DNA from: an uncultured Granulicella sp.
Lineage (GTDB): Bacteria > Acidobacteriota > Terriglobia > Terriglobales > Acidobacteriaceae
NCBI GenBank assembly: GCA_937873145.1
Contig: CALMVK010000147.1
Location: 1-41,715, forward strand
Length of the DNA: 41,715 nt
Direction: 5' to 3'
The position numbers and the translations under genes were made by a program. This document shows, piece by piece, positions 34 through 24,238 of this stretch. The first letter of the stretch is position 1. Each line of letters starts with the position of its first letter. Below the pieces are notes generated by a model. The model ran no database searches. It was not told where the DNA came from and saw only the letters and a program-made list of their open reading frames with translations.

Positions 34-125
34 AACCTTAAGGTTGAACGGCCGCTAAGTCCATCGTAATCAATCATCTACACGCATAATAAACAGCTTA
101 CGTTACTAAGGTAACAAGCTTGTTA
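34..125. promoter_or_regulatory. Cluster of short perfect palindromes (AACCTTAAGGTT at 34-45; TAACAAGCTTGTTA at 112-125) plus GTTAC-TAAG-GTAAC at 102-115, upstream of the first gene
   Basis: Palindromes read directly; AT-rich non-coding region ahead of the CDS at 328. Function unknown. Confidence 0.3.
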
Positions 126-7036: not shown

Positions 7037-8458
7037 CTATCCATTCTTCCGCAGCGCCTGCATGGCGGCGATATACGCCTTTGCATCGAATTTCTTGCTT
7101 GTACTCGCGCCGGACATGTAGCGGATCTTGCCGAAGACGGCTCGCTCTCCCCATGCCCGGTCGAACTTTCCTACCATGGACCAGGCGAGACCCGAATAGC
7201 CATTCGGGTCTCGCCCATCGAGAAAATACTTGTCGTTCAGATACACGCCATATTTCATGGCCGTCGCTACGTCTGGAGTCCATTCCAGAATCTTTTTACC
7301 CCAGTACATCCGCATATAGTTATGCGTCCAGCCGTTTTCCACCATCTGGATTTGCGCTGCGTTCCAAAGTTCGTCATAGGTCTCGGCGCGCTCCAGTTGT
7401 TCCAGGCTGTACAGCGGATTTCGAATATCATGCGCATGTGCCGCAATCGTCTTCTTCGCCCAATCCTCCGCGCACTCAGCCGAGTCATACAGCGGGTTGT
7501 ACTTAACAAAGTTGATCGAGAGTTCCCGCCAGGCAATCAGTTCGTTGAAATAGCTCTCCTTGGCCTCTTTGAGCGCAGGATTTCCTTCTGCCGCTTTGGC
7601 CACCGCCAAAGCGATCGTCTGCGAACCCACGTGACCGTAGTGCAGGTAAGGCGACATCGCCGAAGTGCCGTCCGTCTCCGGATGATTGCGCGTTACGGTG
7701 TATTTGCCGAGCATCGTGGCGGTAAACCGCTCCAGCCGGGCCAGACCGGCATGCGTTCCACCCTTCCACGCCGCCACCGGCTTTACGCTGCGATCGAAGT
7801 CCGTCCAACCCTCCGTGATATCTGCACGCACGTCATCGGCATAAAAGTTTGCCGGGCGCTTCCAGGCATGCTCGGCGTGCGGGTTCTCGTAAGGCACCAG
7901 ATACTCCGGCAGCAGCCTATAAAGTCGCGGCCGGATGGTGTACGCACCGTACTGCGCCTTCTCCATCAGCTTCGACGGCACAATCACATCTGCGTCGACT
8001 GTCCAGAAAGGGATCCGGATACGTTCCGCCAGTTGCTTGCGCCAACGCTCCGGCTCACGCATCGGGTTCTCGTCACCAATGACCATTGCGGCCTGAACGT
8101 CTGCTAAGAAACGCTCATGCGACTCATTTGGGGCACGGCGCATGACAAAGCTGATATTGCGTTTCGCTAAATCCTCCTCAATGTCGGGAAGACCTTGATT
8201 GAGAAAGACGTAATGACGCAGATTGGCATGGGGAAAGTTCGAGATGCCGGCAAAATACACCACCAAGGGAAGCGCAAGCTCATTCGCAAGGGCAACCGCC
8301 AGGTTTACGGCATGGTTATCAACCCCGCGTTCAGCTCTTTGCATCCAGTACACAATGCACTTTCCCTTTGGGTCGGGAGTTCCTTCACGACGGATAGTGA
8401 TACGTGTATTCTCGGCAAGGTGCCGAACGTCTGGCTGTGCTTTTTGACTCGATGCCAT
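7037..8458 (-). CDS. phr: Class II deoxyribodipyrimidine (CPD) photolyase
   Basis: YWMQRAERGVDNHAVNLAVALAN N-terminus; LDGRDPNGYSGLAWSMVGKFDRAWGERAVFGKIRYMS C-terminus typical of class II enzymes. Confidence 0.92.
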   Translation of the reverse strand: MASSQKAQPDVRHLAENTRITIRREGTPDPKGKCIVYWMQRAERGVDNHAVNLAVALANELALPLVVYFAGISNFPHANLRHYVFLNQGLPDIEEDLAKRNISFVMRRAPNESHERFLADVQAAMVIGDENPMREPERWRKQLAERIRIPFWTVDADVIVPSKLMEKAQYGAYTIRPRLYRLLPEYLVPYENPHAEHAWKRPANFYADDVRADITEGWTDFDRSVKPVAAWKGGTHAGLARLERFTATMLGKYTVTRNHPETDGTSAMSPYLHYGHVGSQTIALAVAKAAEGNPALKEAKESYFNELIAWRELSINFVKYNPLYDSAECAEDWAKKTIAAHAHDIRNPLYSLEQLERAETYDELWNAAQIQMVENGWTHNYMRMYWGKKILEWTPDVATAMKYGVYLNDKYFLDGRDPNGYSGLAWSMVGKFDRAWGERAVFGKIRYMSGASTSKKFDAKAYIAAMQALRKNG

Positions 8459-8667: not shown

Positions 8668-9009
8668 CTACCAGAGACCCCAAGCGCGACTTACATAGTC
8701 TGAGAGCGTCATGGTAATCAGCACGATAAACGTAAAGAACCCCGCGCCAACCGTAATCTTGATCAGCCGCGATTGATACTTCACATGCATGAAGAAGAGG
8801 ATGACGACTGTCGCTTTAAAGCAGGCAATGCCTAAAGCCACGATTGGATTGAAGACCCCGAGCTCTACCTTTGCTGCCAAAACCGTCAAGATGGTGCCGA
8901 CCAGCAAAGTGGCATAGACATAGCTGTATTGGAGCGGCGTGACGATATGAGCTTCGGAGTGCTCAGGATTGGTGACGTTCAGTGCATCGTTCTTATCGGA
9001 CACCTGCAA
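8668..9009 (-). CDS. Cytochrome c oxidase subunit IV family protein
   Basis: Three-TM small protein with VILFFMHVKYQSRLIK motif; downstream of coxC. Confidence 0.88.
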   Translation of the reverse strand: MQVSDKNDALNVTNPEHSEAHIVTPLQYSYVYATLLVGTILTVLAAKVELGVFNPIVALGIACFKATVVILFFMHVKYQSRLIKITVGAGFFTFIVLITMTLSDYVSRAWGLW

Positions 9010-9034
9010 CTCCTAAAGGTAAACTGGGCGCGAG

Positions 9035-9799
9035 TTAGTGCGCTAACGGATGACGATTGATCAGGTAGAGCAGCGGAAACAGAAATAACCAAACAATATC
9101 GACAAAGTGCCAATAGAGCGCAAAGTTCTCTATTGGCGCCACATACCCCGCGGTAAATTCACCACGTTGTGCTCTCCACAGAAACCAGAACAGGATGCCG
9201 ATGCCGATAATCATATGGACGGCATGCATTCCAGTCATGGCGAAGTACAGGAAAAAGAAGACTTGGGTTTTCTGCGCCATATCCGGCGCCAGCGGCTTCT
9301 CCGCTAGATGGTAGTCAGCAGGATTAATAAACTGCGAAGCATTGAAGTCCGCACCGGGAATATGGTGCATTTCCCATTTTTCGTGGTACTCCACGCTCTT
9401 GATCCCTAAAAATGCAAGCCCAAAGAGCGTAGTTAATGCTAAACAACCTACCAACATCGTGCGGTTACGAACCTCCGCGTAATACACGGCCAAGGCCATG
9501 AAAAATCCGGAGGTAATCAGGATCAATGTATTGGCTGTTCCCAGCGGCACGCTTAGTTGGTTCGAAGCTGAAACGAAAGCATCGTAGTACCAATTGCGAT
9601 ACAACAAATACGCGAAAAACATTCCACCGAAGAACATGATCTCGGTCAGGAGAAACAGCCACATGCCAAAACTTCCGGCCTCACGCTGCTGTTCCTCCGT
9701 CTCGAAATGATGCCGATGCTGCGGAATCGCGATGTGATCGTATACATCGTGCGCCGTGTCGACCGGCCCATGCTCGGGGACAATGATCGTATTAGCCAA
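9035..9799 (-). CDS. coxC: Cytochrome c oxidase subunit III
   Basis: [54 protein letters not shown] motifs. Confidence 0.95.
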
Positions 9800-11465
9800 C
9801 GGTCGTTACCTCATTTGCAGTTTTGTTTGCCAACCATTCGTAGTCGTATGCTTCATGGTCGACCACCGGGACTTCGGTAAAGTTCTCTGTGAGTGGCGGC
9901 GACTGCAGCTGCCACTCAAGCCCGGTTGCCTGCCAAGGATTATTCCCTGCAATTGCACCATACTTGAGGGACCAACCCAAATAAAGCAGAGGCAACATAT
10001 AGCCTACGCCAAGCACGGTTGCGCCCGCGGTCGACAGTACGTTCAACACCTGAAACTCCGGCGGATAGGCGTGATAGCGACGTGGCATACCGAGATAGCC
10101 CAAGATGAACTGAGGAAGGAAAGTGAGGTTGAAACCAATGAAAGTAACCACCGCGGCCAGCTTTGAGATGGCTTCAGGATACATCCTGCCCGTCATCTTC
10201 GGCCACCAGAAGTGGATACCGGAGAGGAAGGCCATCAGCATGCCACCCACCATCACGAAGTGGAAGTGAGCCACGATGAAGTAAGTCTCGGTCAGATGAA
10301 TATCCATCCCAAGCGAGCCAAGAAAGATCCCAGTCAAGCCACCGATGGTAAATAAACCGATGAAGCCGAAAGCGTACAACATCGGTGTCTCAAACGTGAT
10401 GGAGCCCTTTTGCAGCGTGAAGGACCAGTTGAAGATCTTGATCGCCGAAGGAACCGCGACAAGCATGGTCAGCAGAGAGAAGATCAATGCAGAGTAGTTC
10501 GAGACACCCATGATGAACATGTGGTGCGCCCATACAAAGAAGCCGAAGACAGCAATCGCTACCGAGGAGAAGGCGACCGCGGTATAACCAAATACCCTCT
10601 TCCGGCTAAAGGTTGAGATAACCTCCGAGATGACACCGAAGCCAGGCAGAATCATGATGTAGACGGCCGGGTGAGAGTAGAACCAGAACAAGTGCTGGAA
10701 TAACAGCGGATCGCCGCCCTTACTCGGATCAAAGACGCCAATGCCAATCAGACGCTCAAGACCGACCAGCACCAAGGCAATGGCTAGAACCGGAGTTCCT
10801 AGCACCATCAGCACCGAAGCCGCGTAGTTCGACCATACAAAGAGGGGCAGACGGAACCAGGTCATGCCCGGCGCGCGCATGCGATGGATGGTCACGATGA
10901 AGTTCAACCCGGTAAAGATTGAGCTGAAACCTGCGATAAAGATCGCCGTCGCTGCAGTCACTACGTGGGTATTCAGATAGTGCGTTGAGAGTGGCGTGGT
11001 AAACGTCCAGCCCGTGTCTACGCCGCCGAGGACCAAGGCTGCCAGCGTCAACAAACCGCCAGTTAGATACAGATACCAACTCAGCAAGTTGATCTTTGGG
11101 AATGCCAGATCCTTGGCGCCAATCATGATTGGAATCAGAAAGTTTCCCAAAGTCGCCGGCACGGACGGCACCAGAAACAGGAAGATCATGATAATGCCGT
11201 GCATCGTGAAGAACTTGTTGTAGGTGTCAGAGGCGACCAGGTCGGGCTGCGGCGTCAGCAGTTCAAGACGAATCATGCCCGCGAACGCACCTCCAATAAA
11301 GAAGAAGAAGGTGATTGAGATGAGGTAAAGCATCGCAATGCGCTTATGGTCACCGGTGAGCAACCAGCTCAGGATTCCATGCTCATTGTTCAGATAGTTG
11401 CGGCGCGGCAGGGTGGCCGTCCGCTGGTCTGGAAGACTGACGATTGTTGCATTCGCTGCGCTCAT
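9792..11465 (-). CDS. coxA: Cytochrome c oxidase subunit I, A2-type heme-copper oxidase
   Basis: [42 protein letters not shown] (YSHP signature), [20 protein letters not shown]. Confidence 0.97.
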
Positions 11466-12512
11466 TTACTTCCCCATCCCCGGCGCGACCGGAGCCGTAA
11501 GGTTCGATTGTTGTGTGCCCAGGGTTTGCTGAACACGATAGTTGCTGTTCAGATTCTTAATGTATTCGACTAAGTCGATCAGGCCATCTTCACTGATCTG
11601 CCCTTGATACGTCGGCATGATCGGTGCATATCCCGCGGTAACGTGCTGCGACGGATTCAGGATTGAGTCACGCAGATAAGCATCGTTGACCAAGACCTGC
11701 GAACCGTTCGCGAGATTCAGCTTTGATCCGTACACTCCCGCAAGATTCGGTCCACGCGCCTCTGCGTTGCCGTTATGGCATTGATTGCAGGCCATGCTGG
11801 CGAAGAGCCGCTCTCCGTTCTGCGCCAGCGACTGACCGCTCGTGGACTGCTGCGTCCAGCGCTGGTAGTCCTCTGGCGTCAGAGCCGTTACTTCGCCGAT
11901 CATGCCGGAGTGCTTGGTCCCGCAGTATTGCGTGCAGAAGATGTGGTATGTGCCGGGCGTCGTCGCCTGGAACCACACCGTGGAGTAGCGCCCAGGAATG
12001 ACCTCACGCTTGACGCGGAAATCGGGAATCGAGAAGCTGTGGAAGACGTCCTGGGAGATCATGGTCAGTTGGACCGGACGTCCGGTCGGAACATGCAATG
12101 CGTTGATCTCATGCTGACCGCCGGGATGCTCCGCCTTCCACATCCACTGCTTACCCACGACGTAGATATTCATGGAATTAACAGGAGGATTGTAGATACG
12201 GAAGTACAGCAGCGCGCCCCAGACGAATGTCACTAGAAAGATCGCGAGCGGGATAATGGTCCACGTCGCCTCAAGTAGAGTTGATCCTTCTACCTGCGTG
12301 GCAACCGGGCTCCGCGATTTGCGGTAGCGAATCGAGAAACCGAAGACCAGCACGCCCACCAGAAGAAGACCGGTCAACGTCATGCCAATCAGGAAGAAAT
12401 ACAAAGCGTCGGCCCAAGGTGCCATCGTAGACGCCTCGCGCGGAAACAGCGCGGACGACGCCAGCCACTTGGTTAGAAACTCCCACAAAACCGGACTGAT
12501 AAACCTGCCCAT
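11466..12512 (-). CDS. coxB: Cytochrome c oxidase subunit II with C-terminal cytochrome c domain (caa3-type)
   Basis: CuA motif HIFCTQYCGTKHSGM; heme c motif CNQCH in a C-terminal domain; two N-terminal TM helices. Confidence 0.95.
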   Translation of the reverse strand: MGRFISPVLWEFLTKWLASSALFPREASTMAPWADALYFFLIGMTLTGLLLVGVLVFGFSIRYRKSRSPVATQVEGSTLLEATWTIIPLAIFLVTFVWGALLYFRIYNPPVNSMNIYVVGKQWMWKAEHPGGQHEINALHVPTGRPVQLTMISQDVFHSFSIPDFRVKREVIPGRYSTVWFQATTPGTYHIFCTQYCGTKHSGMIGEVTALTPEDYQRWTQQSTSGQSLAQNGERLFASMACNQCHNGNAEARGPNLAGVYGSKLNLANGSQVLVNDAYLRDSILNPSQHVTAGYAPIMPTYQGQISEDGLIDLVEYIKNLNSNYRVQQTLGTQQSNLTAPVAPGMGK

Positions 12513-12514
12513 CG

Positions 12515-13447
12515 TTACCCTTTATCCCTCTCGCCCGCCAGGTCGTGCTCGCGACCCAGCTTGATGTCCCGGCGAAACATCAAAAACATAAAACCACCCA
12601 AACCTGCCATCGTCACCATGCCCCCCATCTGCACCACTCGAGCCACAATGAGCGAATGCTTATTCGTCTGTGGGTCATAGTGGTAACAGTAGGTCAGAAT
12701 ATTGGCGACAGGAGAACCAATCTTGTTTCCGGAGGCCTCAATCAACCCCAGCAACACGTCCTTCGGGGAATACTCCACGCCCATGTAGTACTGGGCAATC
12801 TGCCCAGAGGTGGTGACCACCTCAAGCGAGCTGGCATGCGCAAACTGGGACAGTGTTCCGTCCGGTCCGGCCACTTTCACATATCCGAAACCAACGGCAC
12901 TGGACACCGCATCGATCGCTGGCTTTTTGCCTGTAAGAAAGTGCCATCCGGCTGCCGTCTCGGGACGGCCGTAACGCTTTACATAAAAGGCTTTCTTCTT
13001 GGCTGCGAGCTCCGGCGTGTCCGCAGGGTCAATGCTGATCACCAGTACGTTGAAGTCCTTGCCGGGATTCAATTTGACCATCTCAAGCGAACTGGTGACG
13101 CCGTCCAGCTCTTCCGAGCAAAGCATGGTGCAGTTGAAGTACACCAGCGAAAGAAGGGCGGGCTTCTTGCCAAAATAATCGCCCAGCTTGACCGTATTTC
13201 CCATCTCATCCACGAACTCAGCATTGAGCGGAAGCTGCTGGTTCAGATGCTGCGTTACCGCCACACCCTTCAAGACGGTAGGCAGTTCATCGCCACGATT
13301 GTCCCCTTGCTGCTTGTCTCCATACCCGGAGACCTGGGCAGCGAGGGTGGGAGTTGCAAGCCAGCCAGTCAGCAGAAACCCGGCAAGCACGACAGCGCGT
13401 GCGGCCCGCATGCTGGTGTTCCATCGGATTCTCAGCTGTCTACTCAT
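12515..13447 (-). CDS. SCO1/SenC family copper chaperone
   Basis: ALLSLVYFNCTMLCSEELDG (CxxxC) and VISIDPADTPELAAKKKAFYVKRYG. Confidence 0.92.
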   Translation of the reverse strand: MSRQLRIRWNTSMRAARAVVLAGFLLTGWLATPTLAAQVSGYGDKQQGDNRGDELPTVLKGVAVTQHLNQQLPLNAEFVDEMGNTVKLGDYFGKKPALLSLVYFNCTMLCSEELDGVTSSLEMVKLNPGKDFNVLVISIDPADTPELAAKKKAFYVKRYGRPETAAGWHFLTGKKPAIDAVSSAVGFGYVKVAGPDGTLSQFAHASSLEVVTTSGQIAQYYMGVEYSPKDVLLGLIEASGNKIGSPVANILTYCYHYDPQTNKHSLIVARVVQMGGMVTMAGLGGFMFLMFRRDIKLGREHDLAGERDKG

Positions 13448-13505: not shown

Positions 13506-14243
13506 TCAGGGATGCTTCACCGGCTTCAACTCCGCATGCTCCGATGTCGCTCTACCAAAAGCCATCTTTTGCTCGCGGGCTTCGATCGTGTCCAGCTCAT
13601 ACCCCGTACGCGCAAATCCACTTGTCAGCGGAGCCGTTACGACCGGCTTCGAGTCCTCAGCCAGCATCTGACCCGACTGGGCTGCAGTTGTAACGGGGAG
13701 ACCGCGTTCCACGATCAACTGCATCGCACGGTCGATCGGAATCCGGATTCCCTGCTCTCCCGGAGCGCGACTGTAATGATCCAGCAGCAGATCCTCGCGT
13801 GCGTGAAGATCGGCCGTGTCTTGATTGCCATCGTCGGTCTGCAGGCGCGGCCCGGGAAACGAGGTCGTCATGGTTTGCAGCTCTTGCTGCACGATCACTG
13901 CGTTGCTCTTCAGGTCTTCGCGTTTTCCGCGCTCTTCTTTGCCATCTACCTTGACGTCCTTGGCTCCGGCAAACATCGACGGTGTCTGGTGCCAACGGTC
14001 CGCCGGCCCATCCTGCTTCTGGATTGCCTCGTTGATGACCCGCCCCATGAAGAAGCAGAAGAAAAAGAAGACAAGAACAAAGGAGGCCAGCCCGCCGATG
14101 AAGACGATAATTCCGCCCGCATTTACGTCGGTTGTCTCATAGCCGACCTCGGCACTCCCCGGACCGGACTTCGGGTAGTCGACGATATCGCCGCTTGGCG
14201 CCTTGTAGTCCCCTGCTTTGTTCTTGGGTGCATTAGTGGCCAT
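13506..14243 (-). CDS. Uncharacterised single-TM protein within the ACIII/caa3 cluster
   Basis: One TM segment (GGIIVFIGGLASFVLVFFFFCFFMG), soluble C-terminus with REDLLLDHYSRAPGEQGIRIPIDRAMQLIVERGLP; its 5' end overlaps the 3' end of actF. No CxxCH or Fe-S motif. Confidence 0.88.
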   Translation of the reverse strand: MATNAPKNKAGDYKAPSGDIVDYPKSGPGSAEVGYETTDVNAGGIIVFIGGLASFVLVFFFFCFFMGRVINEAIQKQDGPADRWHQTPSMFAGAKDVKVDGKEERGKREDLKSNAVIVQQELQTMTTSFPGPRLQTDDGNQDTADLHAREDLLLDHYSRAPGEQGIRIPIDRAMQLIVERGLPVTTAAQSGQMLAEDSKPVVTAPLTSGFARTGYELDTIEAREQKMAFGRATSEHAELKPVKHP

Positions 14244-15555
14244 GATCGGGCTCCAAAATCTCTCTTAGGTGAGGGTCGTTGAGGGCGACAAGTGGCCGCG
14301 CCATCAACTGGGTAAAGTAATACGCCGCCCATAACGACAGCACGGCAAGCGGCACGGTGACGTAGGCGAAGATGCCCCAATTTTCCCCAACCAGGTTGCT
14401 GGCCGCATCCTTGAAGTTGGGCTCGATCAACCAGAACATGTCGAGGCAGCGGGCGAAGATCATAAAGATGGCCAGCGCGGAGAGCCGCCGTTTATCACGC
14501 TTCAGATCGCGCGAGAGCAGGAGACAAAACGGGATAAGCCAGTGGCAGACAAAGTCCGCCACGCAGACATACCACCAGCCTCCCCGGGTACGCGCCAGAT
14601 ACCAGGGAATCTCGTCCGGTACATTGCCTGACCAGATAATCAGAAATTCTGCGAAGGAGAGATAGATATTCAACATCACAAACGCAAACGCAAACTTGCC
14701 CAGATCGTGCTGCTCGGTCACACGCAGCAAGGTGTGCATGGGCTCCACCCTGGAGAGCTTGATCACGGTCAGGATGCCAAGCGCCAGGACGGCAAAACCT
14801 TGTCCAACCAGGAACTGCAACCCCCAGATCGAGCTGTACCAGGTCACGTCGAGCGACATGATCCAAAGGAGGGCGCCATCTGTGAGCAAGATGACATACA
14901 GCAGGATGCTGGGCCCGGAGAGGTTCTCAAAACGGGTACGCCACCGATCGAAGCTGACGGGCGTGCCACGCTGCGGATCGGCATCCTGCTCGAGCGACCA
15001 CTTGCTCAGCAACGAGGCCAACACGATCAGCACGCCGAAGATGATGGCGGTTTGAAGCACGGCGCTGGCAGGATTGAACATAGTGTGCTTGAGGTTGGCC
15101 GTGAGCTGCTGCTCCTTGGTCATCAGCCCTCTTGAGAAGGCGTCCGCCGTGGCAGCTGCATTGGGATACGCCCACCACTGATAGAGCCGCTTGGCGAACA
15201 GGCCGACCGGAAGAATCATCAAGGCTACCAGCGGCAAGGTGCGCGACATCGCCTCAAACGGCCGCCGCAGCAGCATGCCCCACTTGCCGCCGGAGACGTA
15301 CTGCAGCATCAGCATGACGAGACCGCCGCCGGCAAAGCCGAAACACATCATAAAGCCCAGCAGATAGGCGCGCAGCATATGCGTCTTGCCACCAGGAGGA
15401 ATCAGGAAGGCCAGCGACAACAACGTTGCGACGGCAAAGACGATCAATGCTCTAAGCCGCCACGCCGTGAGCGTCGGGATGGAGCGAAGATCGGCCGGCA
15501 GGGTGCGCGACCCCTGATGGGAGTGAGCTTCGGGTTGTGCCAGTGCGGAGGACAT
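14233..15555 (-). CDS. actF: Alternative Complex III quinol:cytochrome c oxidoreductase membrane subunit ActF
   Basis: Polytopic NrfD/PsrC-like protein in act gene order; WYSSIWGLQFLVGQG and YLSFAEFLIIWSGN. Confidence 0.88.
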   Translation of the reverse strand: MSSALAQPEAHSHQGSRTLPADLRSIPTLTAWRLRALIVFAVATLLSLAFLIPPGGKTHMLRAYLLGFMMCFGFAGGGLVMLMLQYVSGGKWGMLLRRPFEAMSRTLPLVALMILPVGLFAKRLYQWWAYPNAAATADAFSRGLMTKEQQLTANLKHTMFNPASAVLQTAIIFGVLIVLASLLSKWSLEQDADPQRGTPVSFDRWRTRFENLSGPSILLYVILLTDGALLWIMSLDVTWYSSIWGLQFLVGQGFAVLALGILTVIKLSRVEPMHTLLRVTEQHDLGKFAFAFVMLNIYLSFAEFLIIWSGNVPDEIPWYLARTRGGWWYVCVADFVCHWLIPFCLLLSRDLKRDKRRLSALAIFMIFARCLDMFWLIEPNFKDAASNLVGENWGIFAYVTVPLAVLSLWAAYYFTQLMARPLVALNDPHLREILEPDHGH

Positions 15556-15627: not shown

Positions 15628-16449
15628 TTATTTACCCGGTTCATGAGCCTCTGGCGGGTAGCCTGTGCTGGCTTGTGCTGGGACCGGACCGGCATCGCGA
15701 TAGCTGGGCGTTTGAATGTGCGCCGCTACCTTGCCGATATCCGCTGGAGGAATGACGTAAAGCTCTCCCGAGGGCGTGCCCGAGACCGCTGTGGGTGGAA
15801 GCAACCAGTCGGATACGAAGCTCGGAGACAGTCCTTCACTCGTGGCGATCTCACCCAGCGGCTGCACATGCTGCCCGGTCGCAATGTCCGCGTCCTGTGC
15901 GTTCTGGCTTAGTTGCAACGCCTTGATGTACGCGACGACGGACCAGCGCTCCGCGGGAGTCAACTGCGCCGAGTAGTCCGGCATAGCTCCGTAACCGTTC
16001 GAGATCACATTATAAAAATGTCCGAGAGGAGCCGCGTTCAGGCGGGCGGTATGGAAGTTGCCCGCCCGGGCATAGCCGCGCTGCACAATCATCCCGACGC
16101 CGTTTCCGACGCGCGAGTGACACGGCGTACAGAAGACGTTGTACTCTTCCTGGCCGCGGGCCAACACATCCATCGTTACGGGAAACGGCATCGACGTGCC
16201 TTCAACGCCGTTGACCATTCCGGTGTAGAAGTAATTGTCCTCGTGCAACTGGCCGCGGGCGACCGTGTTCTCAACCTGCGGACGCACGGAACGACCATCG
16301 GCATAAAAAGTTGAGCCACGCTGCGGATAGAACTTGGGCTGGTTATGCATATCCTGACGGCAGCCGGAGAGCACGGCGGCTGAAGCCAGCAAAGACACTG
16401 TTCCTAGGCGGCTTACATGCTGTTGCGCGTTTGTTTCTGACTTCTTCAA
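15628..16449 (-). CDS. actE: ACIII monoheme cytochrome c subunit ActE
   Basis: Lipoprotein-like signal (LLASAAVLSGC), one CTPCH heme motif, ERWSVVAYIKALQLSQ. Confidence 0.9.
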   Translation of the reverse strand: MKKSETNAQQHVSRLGTVSLLASAAVLSGCRQDMHNQPKFYPQRGSTFYADGRSVRPQVENTVARGQLHEDNYFYTGMVNGVEGTSMPFPVTMDVLARGQEEYNVFCTPCHSRVGNGVGMIVQRGYARAGNFHTARLNAAPLGHFYNVISNGYGAMPDYSAQLTPAERWSVVAYIKALQLSQNAQDADIATGQHVQPLGEIATSEGLSPSFVSDWLLPPTAVSGTPSGELYVIPPADIGKVAAHIQTPSYRDAGPVPAQASTGYPPEAHEPGK

Positions 16450-16991
16450 TTGTCTACCTCAACCACGGAGACCGCGGGAAACTGTTCAAGAAACTTGCGC
16501 GATTCTCCCAGCGAAAATTTTGGATCGTACGCCTCGAGACAAAGAAAGAACTTGTCCGTCGTTGCACCGTTGCGGAAGTTCGGCGCATTGAACACGGGAT
16601 GATAGGTTTGCGGCAGCCCGTTGAGCGCAATCATGCCAAACGCCGCCGAGAGCCCGGAGAAGAGAATCGTCCATTCATAAGCCGGGATAATGAAAGCCGG
16701 CCAACTCCACAACGGTCGGCCTGCAATGTTTAGCGGATAACCCCAAACATTGATCCAGGTCTGCATTAGAAATGCGGTTGTGACTCCCATGAGGCCGCCC
16801 AAAAGGCACATCAAGGGAACGCGCGTCTTGTGAAAGTGCAAGGCGTCGGCTGCTTCTTCCACTGGATAGGGGGTATAGCACTCCATTCTACGGTAGCCGA
16901 ATTTATGCGCAGCCTGAGTAGCCTCAACCAGCTCGCCGGGCGTATTGAACTCTGCGAGCAAACCGTAGATGCCTTCGCGGGGAACAGCCAT
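16446..16991 (-). CDS. actD: ACIII subunit ActD (DUF3341)
   Basis: YGLLAEFNTPGELVEATQAAHKFGYRRMECYTPYPVEEA signature. Confidence 0.92.
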   Translation of the reverse strand: MAVPREGIYGLLAEFNTPGELVEATQAAHKFGYRRMECYTPYPVEEAADALHFHKTRVPLMCLLGGLMGVTTAFLMQTWINVWGYPLNIAGRPLWSWPAFIIPAYEWTILFSGLSAAFGMIALNGLPQTYHPVFNAPNFRNGATTDKFFLCLEAYDPKFSLGESRKFLEQFPAVSVVEVDN

Positions 16992-18433
16992 TAGACCACC
17001 TCGTTGATTGTGGTTTCGGCAACTTCGCCGCCATGCCTAATCTTTGTTTGCGGAAGCATGGTCCGGATTTCAGACATCGGGATCATAGGCAGGAACCGCA
17101 CGAAAAGAAAGAAGAGCACTGTAAACAGACCCATCGTTCCGACATAGATCATGTAGTCCCACTTGGTGGCGCGGTAGGTTCCCCAACTGGAGGGCAGGTA
17201 GTCGCGATAGAGCGAGGTGACAACGATGACGAAGCGTTCAAACCACATGCCCGTGTTGATGATCAGCGATAGAACAAAGAGAAACACCACGTTGACGCGC
17301 AGCTTACGGCTCCACAGTGAAGTCAAGGGAATCGCGATATTGGTCAGGATCAGAATCCAATAGGCCCAGCCCATTGGTCCGAACATCCGGTTCCACATCA
17401 TGAAGAACTCCCAGTGGCTGGCCGAAAACCAGCTCATGAAGATCTCCATGCCGTACCCGTAGGCAACGATCGATCCCGTCGCCAACATGACCTTGGCCAT
17501 ATTGTCCAAGTGCCGCAGCGTGACCAGATCTTCCATGTGATAGAACTTGCGGATTGGAATGGCCAAGGTGAGCACCATCGCAAACCCCGAGTAGACTGCA
17601 CCTGAGACGAAGTACGGCGGGAAGATAGTGGTGTGCCAACCGGCCAGCGCGGCTACCGCAAAGTCAAAACTGATGACCGTGTGCACGGAGAGCACCAACG
17701 GGGTCGAAAGACCTGCAAGCAACAGCGAAGCCGACTCATAACGGATCCAGTGCCGGGTGGACCCGCGCCAACCCAGCGAGAGCAGACCGTAAAAGTATTT
17801 GGCGATCGGCATCGTTGCGCGATCACGCAAGGTGCCGAAGTCGGGAATCATGCCGATGTACCAGAACACAATCGAGATGGTCGCATAGGTTGAAACCGCA
17901 AACACGTCCCAGGCAAGCGGGCTGCGAAACTGCGGCCACAGATTCATGGTGTTGGGATACGGGAAGAGCCAGTACGCCAGCCAGGGACGACCGACGTGAA
18001 TCAACGGAAAGGTTCCCGCACAGACCACAGCGAAGATGGTCATCGCCTCTGCAAAGCGATTGATCGAGTTGCGCCAGGTTTGCTTGAACAACAGCAGGAT
18101 GGCGGAGATCAGCGTGCCGGCGTGACCGATGCCGATCCACCAGACGAAGTTGATGATCGCAAAGCCCCAGGCACCGGGAATCGTCACTCCCCAGATGCCG
18201 ACTCCCTTGAGGAAGAGCCAGGTGATGCCGATGACCACGCCCGTGGCCACGCCCGCGCCAACCGTCAGCCCGGCAAACCAGCCGAGCGGCGTGTTCGACG
18301 TCAGCACGACTCCAGCGATCTTCTGCGTGACCGACTTGAAGCTGTGACCGGGCGCAATGACCGCGTACTCCCCGGTGTAGGGGTCGATCATCGGGTCGAC
18401 GGAAGGATCGTGAATAGGTCCTTTAGTAGCCAT
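16991..18433 (-). CDS. actC: ACIII NrfD-like integral membrane subunit ActC
   Basis: Polytopic NrfD/PsrC family; GVTIPGAWGFAIINFVWWIGIGHAGTLISAILLL. Confidence 0.95.
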   Translation of the reverse strand: MATKGPIHDPSVDPMIDPYTGEYAVIAPGHSFKSVTQKIAGVVLTSNTPLGWFAGLTVGAGVATGVVIGITWLFLKGVGIWGVTIPGAWGFAIINFVWWIGIGHAGTLISAILLLFKQTWRNSINRFAEAMTIFAVVCAGTFPLIHVGRPWLAYWLFPYPNTMNLWPQFRSPLAWDVFAVSTYATISIVFWYIGMIPDFGTLRDRATMPIAKYFYGLLSLGWRGSTRHWIRYESASLLLAGLSTPLVLSVHTVISFDFAVAALAGWHTTIFPPYFVSGAVYSGFAMVLTLAIPIRKFYHMEDLVTLRHLDNMAKVMLATGSIVAYGYGMEIFMSWFSASHWEFFMMWNRMFGPMGWAYWILILTNIAIPLTSLWSRKLRVNVVFLFVLSLIINTGMWFERFVIVVTSLYRDYLPSSWGTYRATKWDYMIYVGTMGLFTVLFFLFVRFLPMIPMSEIRTMLPQTKIRHGGEVAETTINEVV

Positions 18434-21400
18434 CTATGCCAGCTCCGGATTCGGGTTGATCACGCCTGCCGTGTAGGTCGTGCGTGGCTTGTAGTTGAGA
18501 TCGGCAAGCACAGGATAGTCGCGCTCGGCAGCCTTGCGCCGCGCCACCTTGCTGGTCCGGTCATTCTTGTTGCCGAAGATAATTGCGCCCGTCGGGCAGG
18601 CTTGCTGGCAGGCAGTGATGATCTCGCCATCCCGGACTGCCCGGTTTTCCTTGTCCGCTTCGAGCTTGGCCGACTCGATCCGCTGCACGCAATAGGTGCA
18701 CTTTTCCATCACGCCGCGCGAGCGAACGGTGACGTCCGGGTTGCGCATGAACTTCAAGCTCTCCGTGTCGTAGTCCGAATACAGCAGGAAGTTGAACCGG
18801 CGCACTTTGTACGCGCAATTATTTGAGCAGTAACGTGTGCCCACGCAGCGGTTGTAGACCATCGTGTTGAGGCCCTCCGGCGTATGCACCGTTGCCCCTA
18901 CCGGGCAGACGAGCTCGCAGCCGGCGTTCTCGCAATGCTGGCAGGCCATCGGCTGGAAGTGTGCCTTGGGCGCGGAAAGATCGCCCTCAAAGTAGGTATC
19001 GATGCGGATCCACTGCATGTTGCGGCCTACCTTCACCTGCTCGCGGCCGACCACAGCAATGTTGTTCTCCGCATAGCAGCTGACAATGCAGGCATTGCAG
19101 CCAATGCAGCTATTTAGATCAATCGACATTGCCCACGCATTCTGCAGGAGTTGCGAGGACTCATCGGTATGATCGTACGCAAATTTATCCGCGGAGAGAC
19201 TGTCGTCGTGGGCTGGATCTTCTCCTTGCGGTCCGTAGCCAACCTTGTTGACCAGGGTGCCGCTTGCCCCTTCATGCGCAAAATTCGGCTTGGTCTTTGC
19301 TTCGGAGACAGTCGCGTAACGGATGATCGAGCGCTCTTCGGCCTCATGGCCAGGCAGCGAGTAGGTGCCTTTCTTGTCCGAGACGGGACGCTCAAGATCG
19401 TGCTGCGCGTACGAGCCGCGATGGTCGATCGAGTGCACCTTGGTGACGCACAGATCGTAGCTGCCCTTGCCGCGCGTTACCTTCACCCCTGCAGCCGAGT
19501 TGGGAGCATCGCTGCCGCGGAGCGCGTATGCATTGAAGCCAACGCCCGATCCGACCCGGCCGGCATCGCTGCGGCCTCCACCGTAGTGGACGGTAATCAC
19601 ATCGTCGGCATGGCCTGGTACGCCCAGCACCGGAGCAATCACCCGCCGTCCGTTCAGCTCAAGCTCGATCGCCTCATTCTCGGCAATCTTCAGCTTCTCA
19701 AGCGTAGCCAGGCTCATCAGCGCGGCGTTGTCCCAGCTCATGCTGGTGACCTGCTTAGGCAACTCCTGCAGCCAGCCGATATTGGCATAACGCCCATCGT
19801 AGAGCGACGAATCGTTTCTGAAGAGGATCTCTATGCTGCCCGGTGCGCTGGCGGTAGAAGTCTGCGCTGCGACGGCGTTTGGGCTGCCGGCCTTCGGGGT
19901 GAACGCTGTTCCCTCCACCCAGCCATCGTGCAGCGCCTTGCGCCACGCCGCGTCCGGATCGCCCTTCAGCAAGGGACGCGTGTTGGCTAACACAGCGTCA
20001 TAGGCGGAAGCCTGCGGATTGTCGAGCAGACCCTGAAGAATGTCATGGGCGCTGTGGCCGTTGTAGAGCGGCTCAATCATCGGCTGCACAATCGAGAGCG
20101 TGCCGTCATACGCGCGCGCATCGGACCACGACTCAAGATAGTGAGTCATATTGATATGCCACGTTGTGTGCAGGCCGGTCTCGTCGATTAGGTTTGCCAG
20201 ATGCGCCGTGTAAGGGACGCGATCGACAAGGCTGCCGAACTGGAGATCGGCGGGCGCCGTATAGACCGGGTTGCCGCCCAGCATCACCAGCCACTGCACC
20301 TTGCCGGCCTGAATGTCGGCGGCGAGCGAACGCAGATCCGCAAGCTGCTCACTCGGCATCGGCGCGACGGTCTCGGTGTAGACGACGGTCTTGCCTACCG
20401 CACCTAAGCTGGCATTCAGACGATAGGCAGCGAGATGCACCTCGGGGGAGGCTCCCTCGCCCGGAATGACCACACAGCGTCCGTTGGCCGATTTTAGATC
20501 GGCAGCCAGCACGCTTAGGAACTTAGCCGCGTCCGGATTGGAGAAGCTTCCACCCGCGCCGCCGGAAGCAAGCGCACCGGCAAAACCGGCAAGCTCGCTC
20601 GGCTTCAACGTCAGCCGATGCTCCGCCTTGAAACCGGTTACGCTCGCCATGCTCTCGACAACGTAGAGCCGATTCATGGGCTTGGTGGGATTTTCAGCGT
20701 CAAAACTGTGACGCTCAGCGTAGTCTGCCGCCAGAGGCAGGAAGCCGGGGTGGGCGATGCCTCCCAGGAAATCCGCATCGAGCGAGACAATCACGTCTGC
20801 GTCCGCAAGCCGGTACTGCGCGTCGGTGTAGCTGCCGAAGGCAGCCTTCGATGCCGCACGCGAGGAATCCTGATTTACGCCATCCCACTGCAGGAATTTA
20901 GCGTTGGGGTAAAGCTTCTGAACGGCCTGCCACTGCGCCGCCAGCGTCGGCGAGGTTACCGTTTCAGAGAGGAAGTAGAGACCCTGGCCACCCTGCATTC
21001 CCTTCGCCGCCTGGAGCAGCGCCGTCTGGAAGTTTCCAAAGGAAGAGGTCTGGTCTTTGTAGATAGTGTCGTGCGCGCGATCCGGATCGTACAGCCCTAA
21101 CAGCGTTCCCTGAGTGATGGCATCCGACTTGCCTTTCGACATCGGATGATCGGGGTTCCCCTCAAGCTTGATTGGCCGGAAAGCATCCGACTTGACCAGA
21201 ATCGGGATCGCTCCGGTCGGAAACGGGTGCGCGGTCGCAAAGTACTTTGCCTGGCCGAGCACCAGGTCCTCCGGCTGACGAATATACGGGTAGATTGGCT
21301 CGTCAGGCTGCTTGGTGCAGCCGGCCATGCCGGCAAACGCCAGCGAAGCTCCCATGACCTTCAGAAAGCCACGCCGCGAGACTGCGTCCACCCACTCACT

Positions 21401-21679
21401 CTGCCCGAAGACAGAGCCGGTCTGGCGGGGGAACTCTTCCGTCATCAGCTCGTTGAACTCCGGCGTAGCCGCAAGCTCATCCAGATTCTTCCAGAAGCGC
21501 CGCCCGGTTTGCCCAGCAAGCTTGGTCCGAACTGCCTCGAGCGTCATCTTGGGCTGCGGCACAGGAGCGATGCTGGTTACAAGCTGCACGTCTGCCGCAG
21601 CAACGGCCTCGAGCGAGATCTCTTCAGTCTGCTGCAAATTCTTCATGGTCTCCATCGGAATATTGCTCATCGGTGGCAC
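18434..21679 (-). CDS. actB: ACIII ActB: fused molybdopterin-oxidoreductase-like and four-cluster Fe-S subunit, Tat motif
   Basis: SRRGFLKVMGASLAFAGMAGC Tat-like motif; ferredoxin cysteine groups CIGCNACIVSC, CQHCENAGCELVCP, CVGTRYCSNNC, CTYC...CQQACP. Confidence 0.95.
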   Translation of the reverse strand: MPPMSNIPMETMKNLQQTEEISLEAVAAADVQLVTSIAPVPQPKMTLEAVRTKLAGQTGRRFWKNLDELAATPEFNELMTEEFPRQTGSVFGQSEWVDAVSRRGFLKVMGASLAFAGMAGCTKQPDEPIYPYIRQPEDLVLGQAKYFATAHPFPTGAIPILVKSDAFRPIKLEGNPDHPMSKGKSDAITQGTLLGLYDPDRAHDTIYKDQTSSFGNFQTALLQAAKGMQGGQGLYFLSETVTSPTLAAQWQAVQKLYPNAKFLQWDGVNQDSSRAASKAAFGSYTDAQYRLADADVIVSLDADFLGGIAHPGFLPLAADYAERHSFDAENPTKPMNRLYVVESMASVTGFKAEHRLTLKPSELAGFAGALASGGAGGSFSNPDAAKFLSVLAADLKSANGRCVVIPGEGASPEVHLAAYRLNASLGAVGKTVVYTETVAPMPSEQLADLRSLAADIQAGKVQWLVMLGGNPVYTAPADLQFGSLVDRVPYTAHLANLIDETGLHTTWHINMTHYLESWSDARAYDGTLSIVQPMIEPLYNGHSAHDILQGLLDNPQASAYDAVLANTRPLLKGDPDAAWRKALHDGWVEGTAFTPKAGSPNAVAAQTSTASAPGSIEILFRNDSSLYDGRYANIGWLQELPKQVTSMSWDNAALMSLATLEKLKIAENEAIELELNGRRVIAPVLGVPGHADDVITVHYGGGRSDAGRVGSGVGFNAYALRGSDAPNSAAGVKVTRGKGSYDLCVTKVHSIDHRGSYAQHDLERPVSDKKGTYSLPGHEAEERSIIRYATVSEAKTKPNFAHEGASGTLVNKVGYGPQGEDPAHDDSLSADKFAYDHTDESSQLLQNAWAMSIDLNSCIGCNACIVSCYAENNIAVVGREQVKVGRNMQWIRIDTYFEGDLSAPKAHFQPMACQHCENAGCELVCPVGATVHTPEGLNTMVYNRCVGTRYCSNNCAYKVRRFNFLLYSDYDTESLKFMRNPDVTVRSRGVMEKCTYCVQRIESAKLEADKENRAVRDGEIITACQQACPTGAIIFGNKNDRTSKVARRKAAERDYPVLADLNYKPRTTYTAGVINPNPELA

Positions 21680-22626
21680 ACCTCACAGCTAGACAACTGG
21701 TTGGCGCTGCGGATGTGGTATTGCGAGGTCAAATAGCGGCCTAAATCCACCTGGCTCGTAAACTTCTTGTAAGTGACCGGCAAAGGAATAATCTCCGCTG
21801 GCGGGACCCCGGTTGCGTTGACGTCCGGACTGGTTGCATGCGGATCCAGGTTTGTGCCGGAACCCGGATTGGTATGGCCCATGCTGCGCGGATGGAAGTC
21901 CAACTCCTGCAGCATCGCGATCTGCGGATTGTCGCGGCTTGGATCCTTGGTGGTGCAGCTAATGGCCTGCGCGGTGGGAACTCGCTGTCCTTGCGGACCG
22001 TAACTATTGGCGCCCGCCGCGCGCGTCGTGTCGGCGCACCAGACCGGCTTGTCCGAACTCGGCCCGGCCCACGCCATGTTGTAGATCTCGCTCGTCGGCC
22101 GAAGGTTGACTGCCGGATTGCGATGGCAGTTCAAGCACCACTCCATCTGCAACGAATTCTGCTGATACATCAGCGGCATCTCGTCCACGCGTCCATGACA
22201 ACTGGCACAGCCGATGCCCTTGTTCACGTGAATGTAGTGATTGAAGTACACGTAGTCCGGCAGGTCGTGGATACGGATCCAGCGGATCGACTCGCCCGTG
22301 GCCCAGCTATCGCGTACCGGCTGCAGCAGTTGGGCGTTGGTCCAGATCTGCGCATGACAGTTGATACAGGTCTTGGTCGGAGGAACGCCGGCATAGGCCG
22401 CTTTCTCCACCTGCGTGTGGCAGTACTGACACTGCAACCCGAGACCTTCGACGTGATGCTTATGACTGAACGCGACCGGCTGGTCCGGACGCTGGCCCTG
22501 CCGGGTGACCCACGGCGAACGCTGCAGCGAGTTCAAGCCAACGCCTACCGCGATAATAATGACTCCGGTAAGCACGAGGCTCGCGCGGGCCAGGGCGTTC
22601 GAACTGCGATCAAAGACTTGCGCCAT
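21667..22626 (-). CDS. actA: ACIII pentaheme cytochrome c subunit ActA
   Basis: Five CxxCH motifs counted: CQYCH, CINCH, CASCH, CLNCH, CEVCH; N-terminal TM anchor. Confidence 0.95.
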   Translation of the reverse strand: MAQVFDRSSNALARASLVLTGVIIIAVGVGLNSLQRSPWVTRQGQRPDQPVAFSHKHHVEGLGLQCQYCHTQVEKAAYAGVPPTKTCINCHAQIWTNAQLLQPVRDSWATGESIRWIRIHDLPDYVYFNHYIHVNKGIGCASCHGRVDEMPLMYQQNSLQMEWCLNCHRNPAVNLRPTSEIYNMAWAGPSSDKPVWCADTTRAAGANSYGPQGQRVPTAQAISCTTKDPSRDNPQIAMLQELDFHPRSMGHTNPGSGTNLDPHATSPDVNATGVPPAEIIPLPVTYKKFTSQVDLGRYLTSQYHIRSANQLSSCEVCHR

Positions 22627-23836: not shown

Positions 23837-24238
23837 TTAGGGCAGGTCAGCCGTTTTTAGAGCGACACGGCGTACCACCCACGCCGTCCACTCGTCTTCG
23901 CCGATCTCCCCCGCAGCCGCTCGCAGGACCATCGCGGTCTCTTCGACTTCCGAGCAGGTCAGGCGATGGCCGTTCAGTTCGAGAAAGATGGTAAGCGCCG
24001 CGAACGCAACTCGTTTGTTGCCATCGACAAACGGATGGTTCCGCAACAGCGACCAGGTCAATGCAGCGCCAAGCTCCGCAACGCCGGCCGCCTCGGCATA
24101 GGCTTCCAAATTTCGCGGCCGGCTGACGGAGGACTCAAGGGCATTCTCGTCTCGAATCCCGGCGAGCCCTCCGTAGCGCTCAATCAGGCGGCCATGCACG
24201 TTGCGCAGCACGTCCGCTCGAACGAACTGCAAGCTCAC
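23837..24238 (-). CDS. doc: Doc family (death-on-curing) toxin
   Basis: IERYGGLAGIRDENALESSVSRP and NHPFVDGNKRVAFAALTIFLELNGHRL; GTG start in a 4-bp GTGA overlap with the antitoxin. Confidence 0.92.
   Translation of the reverse strand: MSLQFVRADVLRNVHGRLIERYGGLAGIRDENALESSVSRPRNLEAYAEAAGVAELGAALTWSLLRNHPFVDGNKRVAFAALTIFLELNGHRLTCSEVEETAMVLRAAAGEIGEDEWTAWVVRRVALKTADLP

Follow-up and report, generated by a model that had tools for sequence, protein, structure and literature searches.

A putative ActG subunit of alternative complex III encoded between actF and sco in an uncultured Granulicella, with relatives far beyond Chloroflexus

We analysed a stretch of 41,715 nucleotides (contig CALMVK010000147.1; "the window" hereafter) from an uncultured Granulicella sp. 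It carries an operon for alternative complex III (ACIII) and a caa3-type oxidase in the order actA-actB-actC-actD-actE-actF-actG-like-sco-coxB-coxA-coxC-coxD. The actG-like gene has actF on one side and the sco and caa3 genes on the other, just where a preliminary description had placed it. The identities of actD, sco and the caa3 subunits were confirmed by Pfam/NCBIfam models. The features are as follows.

8668..12512, minus strand: coxB with a cytochrome c domain, coxA, coxC and coxD (caa3-type oxidase)
12515..13447, minus strand: sco, SCO1/SenC copper chaperone (PF02630, E=3.4e-10)
13506..14243, minus strand: actG-like gene, putative single-TM subunit of ACIII, 245 aa (from translation, ActG homology and synteny)
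13509..13691, minus strand: C-terminal tail of Acidobacteriaceae type, residues 185-245 (PLTxGFxxT plus a predicted helix, 214-237)
13605-13631, minus strand: PLTxGFxxT, residues 205-213, inside the C-terminal tail
13692..13862, minus strand: conserved core, residues 128-184 (FPxPRLQ ... LHxREDxLLxxY ... RIPIDRAM), under the strongest purifying selection (dN/dS 0.16)
13695..13745, minus strand: family motif RIPIDRAMQLIVERGLP, residues 167-183, common to Chloroflexus ActG
14034..14114, minus strand: transmembrane helix, residues 44-70 (hydropathy; AlphaFold helix 42-78, pLDDT 80-98)
14233..15555, minus strand: actF, membrane subunit (from position and homology of neighbours; no Pfam model match)
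14251..14254, minus strand: Shine-Dalgarno sequence GGAG, 7 nt upstream of the actG-like ATG (read from the sequence)
15628..16449, minus strand: actE, mono-heme cytochrome c
16446..16991, minus strand: actD (PF11821, E=1.2e-62)
16991..18433, minus strand: actC, NrfD/PsrC-like (annotated equivalents in relatives)
18434..21679, minus strand: actB, fused molybdopterin-like and 4Fe-4S domains (annotated equivalents in relatives)
21667..22626, minus strand: actA, multi-heme cytochrome c

Just 3' of coxD and on the same strand lies a gene for a DNA photolyase-family protein (7037-8458, minus strand; PF00875). Positions 23837-24238 (minus strand) encode a Fic/DOC family protein with the sequence HPFVDGNKR (PF02661, E=1.5e-16), likely a Doc-type toxin.

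The actG-like open reading frame encodes a real, constrained protein. Of 37 genomes of the genus that were searched, with that of the window among them, 36 carry an orthologue, and a codon comparison of twelve orthologues gave dN/dS values of 0.37 for the N-terminus, 0.22 for the TM helix, 0.39 for the linker, 0.16 for the core and 0.30 for the tail; a chance ORF is therefore excluded. Its first 11 nt are shared with the end of actF (14233-14243), bearing out the translational overlap proposed earlier, and the GGAG in front of it makes an ideal ribosome-binding site. In 56 of 72 related loci the start lies at most 10 nt from actF or overlaps it, a few of the large overlaps reflecting start-codon choices of our script. 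When the 245-aa protein was searched against Pfam and NCBIfam, no model was found at E up to 1, which explains why it looked uncharacterised.

The preliminary description of a protein with one TM helix and no heme or Fe-S motif also holds. There is a single hydrophobic segment (best 20-residue window 45-64, mean Kyte-Doolittle 2.8), and hydropathy revealed a second TM-like window in 0 of 46 homologues. A scan for cofactor motifs found no CXXCH and no Cys cluster. The motif noted earlier in the C-terminal part was located at residues 167-183. Among the residues invariant across the family are L154, I168, P169, I170 and A173; R172, M174, R180, G181 and P183 are nearly so. The claim of a soluble C-terminal domain was overstated, however. 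The AlphaFold monomer (pLDDT 61, pTM 0.25) shows after the TM helix only isolated helices at 115-128, 139-157, 170-179 and 214-237, joined by low-confidence linkers, and a compact fold is absent.

What, then, is this protein? Among all PDB chains, the sole match of the single sequence (phmmer) was ActG of the Chloroflexus ACIII (8k9e_G, E=0.0022), in an alignment that puts the motif over ActG residues 80-110 of 112. Since our first family alignment contained Chloroflexota, the profile was rebuilt without them, and this Chloroflexota-free profile recovered ActG from the PDB at E=9.7e-12. Comparison by hhalign with four Chloroflexota ActG sequences gave 99.0% (E=6.5e-18) over 48 columns. Significant similarity extends over only some 48 residues, those surrounding the motif; the linkers are unaligned, and the TM part aligns weakly but collinearly. 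Sequence comparison thus identifies the 245-aa protein as a homologue of ActG, an ACIII subunit that already has a name and solved structures, rather than the undescribed component that had been suggested. ActH (Rmar_1979) of Rhodothermus marinus is by its description likewise a small additional ACIII protein; its chain was absent from the matches of both PDB searches, by single sequence and by profile.

Chloroflexus aurantiacus ActG (PDB 8k9e_G, 8k9f, 8x2j, 9ilt) has the same plan: a single TM helix followed by a C-terminal arm with [RH]IPIDRAMxLIVERGLP at its end, no cofactor motif, and a gene placed after actF. In the Chloroflexus respiratory (Cr) operon, B-E-A-G-SCO-cox, sco and four cox genes come right after actG (PMC3150298), the slot that the gene occupies, following actF, in the window and its relatives; the earlier proposal of an ACIII/caa3-module member in the place of ActG is upheld. 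The two proteins differ in length, 112 aa in C. aurantiacus and 245 aa here: the N-terminus and the linker from TM to motif are longer here, and whereas Chloroflexota ActG ends 3-9 residues past the motif, the Granulicella protein continues into a conserved tail of about 60 residues. By description it also resembles ActG of Rhodothermus marinus, which was found in purified ACIII by peptide mass fingerprinting, has one predicted TMH and no cofactor, and is missing from some act clusters (PMC5928083).

We then asked how widely this gene occurs. A scan with the degenerate DNA of IPI[DE]RAMx5RGLP, one genome per species, returned at least 80 loci, and on 80 of the 80 listed strict-motif contigs the ORF follows actF or, where the contig or stretch breaks off, lies immediately ahead of sco/cox. 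These listed loci belong to Acidobacteriota, Planctomycetota, Verrucomicrobiota, Binatia, Chloroflexota and Microbulbifer. Plasmids, searched by tblastn, added 17 further records, from Rhizobium, Mesorhizobium, Nitrobacter, Bradyrhizobium, Azospirillum, Methylobacterium, Martelella, Paraburkholderia and planctomycetes; each of the 17 has act genes upstream and cox downstream (unannotated records by tblastn). A check for homologues away from ACIII/cox loci had been proposed earlier, and the placement withstood it on the 80 contigs and 17 plasmids alike. A 2022 paper (PMC9316378) described ActG as Chloroflexus-specific, but the gene is far wider spread, and this distribution, together with a family that lacks a Pfam/NCBIfam model, is new here. 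Proteins named "hypothetical protein" in Acidobacteriota, Planctomycetota, Verrucomicrobiota, Chloroflexota and Pseudomonadota are now tied to ACIII. In one genome there are two act-ActG-sco-cox loci whose ActG copies differ, sharing 61% and 67% identity with that of the window; the assembly of this genome is listed as 6% contaminated. An ActF-ActG gene fusion, considered for three long ORFs (L054, L068, L099), was rejected: in two of them the overlap is in the wrong frame, and in L068 the join runs solely through masked N bases.

The actG-like gene tracks ACIII rather than the oxidase or SCO. Among 247 Acidobacteriota genomes, the family profile matched 119 and ActD (PF11821) matched 185, with ActD present in 118 of the 119 ActG-positive genomes. 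ActG was thus found together with ACIII in 118/119 Acidobacteriota genomes and in 17/17 plasmid records, phyla beyond Acidobacteriota being sampled only through motif and plasmid matches. In Acidobacteriota, actD is no more than 8 kb away from 115 of 121 ActG matches, at a median distance of 2.0 kb; of the other six, four come from ActD-positive but fragmented assemblies, where they are on a different contig from actD, and two are weak (E about 1e-5). The window's own genome has one ActG and one ActD, in the same operon, but three CoxA and two SCO, and no ActG copy was found alongside its other CoxA/SCO genes, the second SCO included. On Methylobacterium radiotolerans plasmids the ActG gene is kept in an operon without sco, and at four Chloroflexales ActG loci (L085, L088, L100, L110) neither sco nor cox was seen downstream in the 1.4-6.4 kb read. 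Because the gene is kept without sco/cox and has no copy with the other CoxA/SCO genes, we assign it to ACIII.

From homology, gene slot and co-occurrence with ACIII, we infer that the protein is very probably ActG, a single-TM structural subunit of this quinol:cytochrome c oxidoreductase, anchored in the membrane and docking by its RIPIDRAM helix. It would be made coupled to ActF and inserted with its N-terminus inside, its helix packing beside the ActC/ActF membrane domain. The charges flanking the TM helix (1.4 vs 1.9 K+R) leave topology unsettled; the Arg-rich N-terminus of Chloroflexota members such as L110, taken with the positive-inside rule, points to a periplasmic C-terminal arm, on the side of the redox subunits. 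This extended arm may lie on the redox core, docked by the RIPIDRAM helix, which, sitting in the most constrained part of the protein, is the obvious candidate for a docking element. The predicted isolated helices without a compact fold would fit a subunit that folds or wraps onto its partners. ActG would then stabilise ACIII and carry no electrons. In the Chloroflexus structure paper of Xin et al. 2024, ActG is reportedly a contributor to complex stability.

Other explanations have to be weighed against a structural ActG. That the protein is unrelated and has only a short linear motif in common with ActG is highly improbable: although strong similarity is confined to those 48 residues or so, the gene slot is identical, the order of TM then motif is kept, and intermediates in many phyla align along their length. 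Equally far-fetched is a role as an assembly factor of SCO/CuA or caa3 rather than as a stable subunit, which the preliminary description had also entertained. For it speaks the immediate neighbourhood of sco; yet the gene is retained on the Methylobacterium plasmids where the operon lacks sco, has no copy found with the other CoxA or SCO genes of the window's genome, does without following cox genes in the Chloroflexales stretches read, and has a homologue resolved as a subunit in ACIII structures.

We consider it unlikely, though a good deal less so, that the protein is an ACIII-caa3 supercomplex linker, its arm or its Acidobacteriaceae tail binding CoxB or the cytochrome c domain of CoxB and so joining both complexes. 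In most phyla the gene has the act block on one side and the cox block on the other, the extra tail is conserved, with PLTxGFxxT in 25 of 77 sequences, and ACIII-A2 caa3 superoperons have been described and are transcribed in Acidobacteriaceae (PMC8407424). However, ActG is present at the four Chloroflexales loci, where ACIII is not linked to oxidase genes in the stretches read, and in the photosynthetic operon too (PMC3150298), and in the F. johnsoniae supercomplex the contacts are made by oxidase subunit III (Chem. Rev., PMC8361435). Since Chloroflexota ActG occurs without cox/sco following in these stretches, linking is unlikely to be the general role of ActG.

The tail itself merits separate attention. 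Tails of 48-76 residues past the motif, the Acidobacteriaceae type, occur in 25 of 77 sequences, and the P, L, T, G, F and T of PLTxGFxxT are invariant in 21 aligned tails. A search for a second tail copy in the window's genome gave only a chance match (E=1.2). Judged from these alignments, a conserved tail of about 60 residues with PLTxGFxxT on Acidobacteriaceae ActG is new. It probably makes one more protein contact, whose partner would be either another part of ACIII or the caa3 oxidase of the downstream genes. The bolder idea, that PLTxGFxxT and helix 214-237 form a lineage-specific docking arm gripping caa3 and turning an ancestral stabilising ActG into a supercomplex linker, is quite doubtful. 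An ACIII-caa3 supercomplex in Acidobacteriaceae is nevertheless plausible, because the ACIII-A2 caa3 superoperons described there are transcribed by some soil strains down to nanomolar oxygen (PMC8407424). For the same reason, a full list of ACIII subunits would be useful for structural work.

Most of the ActD loci read that lack an ActG match are laid out differently: either a cytochrome c protein fills the slot of an actABCDEF cluster, or coxA comes after actC-D-F and sco is missing. This agrees with the published observation (PMC5928083) that some act clusters have no actG. Divergent members of the family, reading MPIDAAI or LPLARAR, are encoded at two loci (L187, L193) whose genomes gave no ActG match; these two and L213, taken together, align to the family (97%). 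One Acidobacteriota cluster type, actABCDEF-?-sco-coxA-C-D-B, has in the slot a protein that combines a TM segment with a c-type cytochrome and ends in IPxRIPVxRAV (L194, 11335-12036; L199, 11327-12025; equivalents in L195, L197 and L198). It resembles ActG in its position between actF and sco and in an ending like the motif, but differs in its c-type heme domain (PF00034), and profile comparison with the ActG family gave 2.9%, leaving homology unsupported. A domain swap with CoxB in these clusters was likewise rejected, as CoxB there retains its own cytochrome c domain and the slot protein's homology to ActG is unsupported. In a second act-like type (L188-L191, L200-L202, L205, L207), actC-D-F adjoin coxA-C-D-B without sco or ActG, and A, B and E were not detected by tblastn. 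The gaps read in this type encode, between actF and coxA, a secreted beta-sandwich-like protein of about 240 aa with an HNVH motif.
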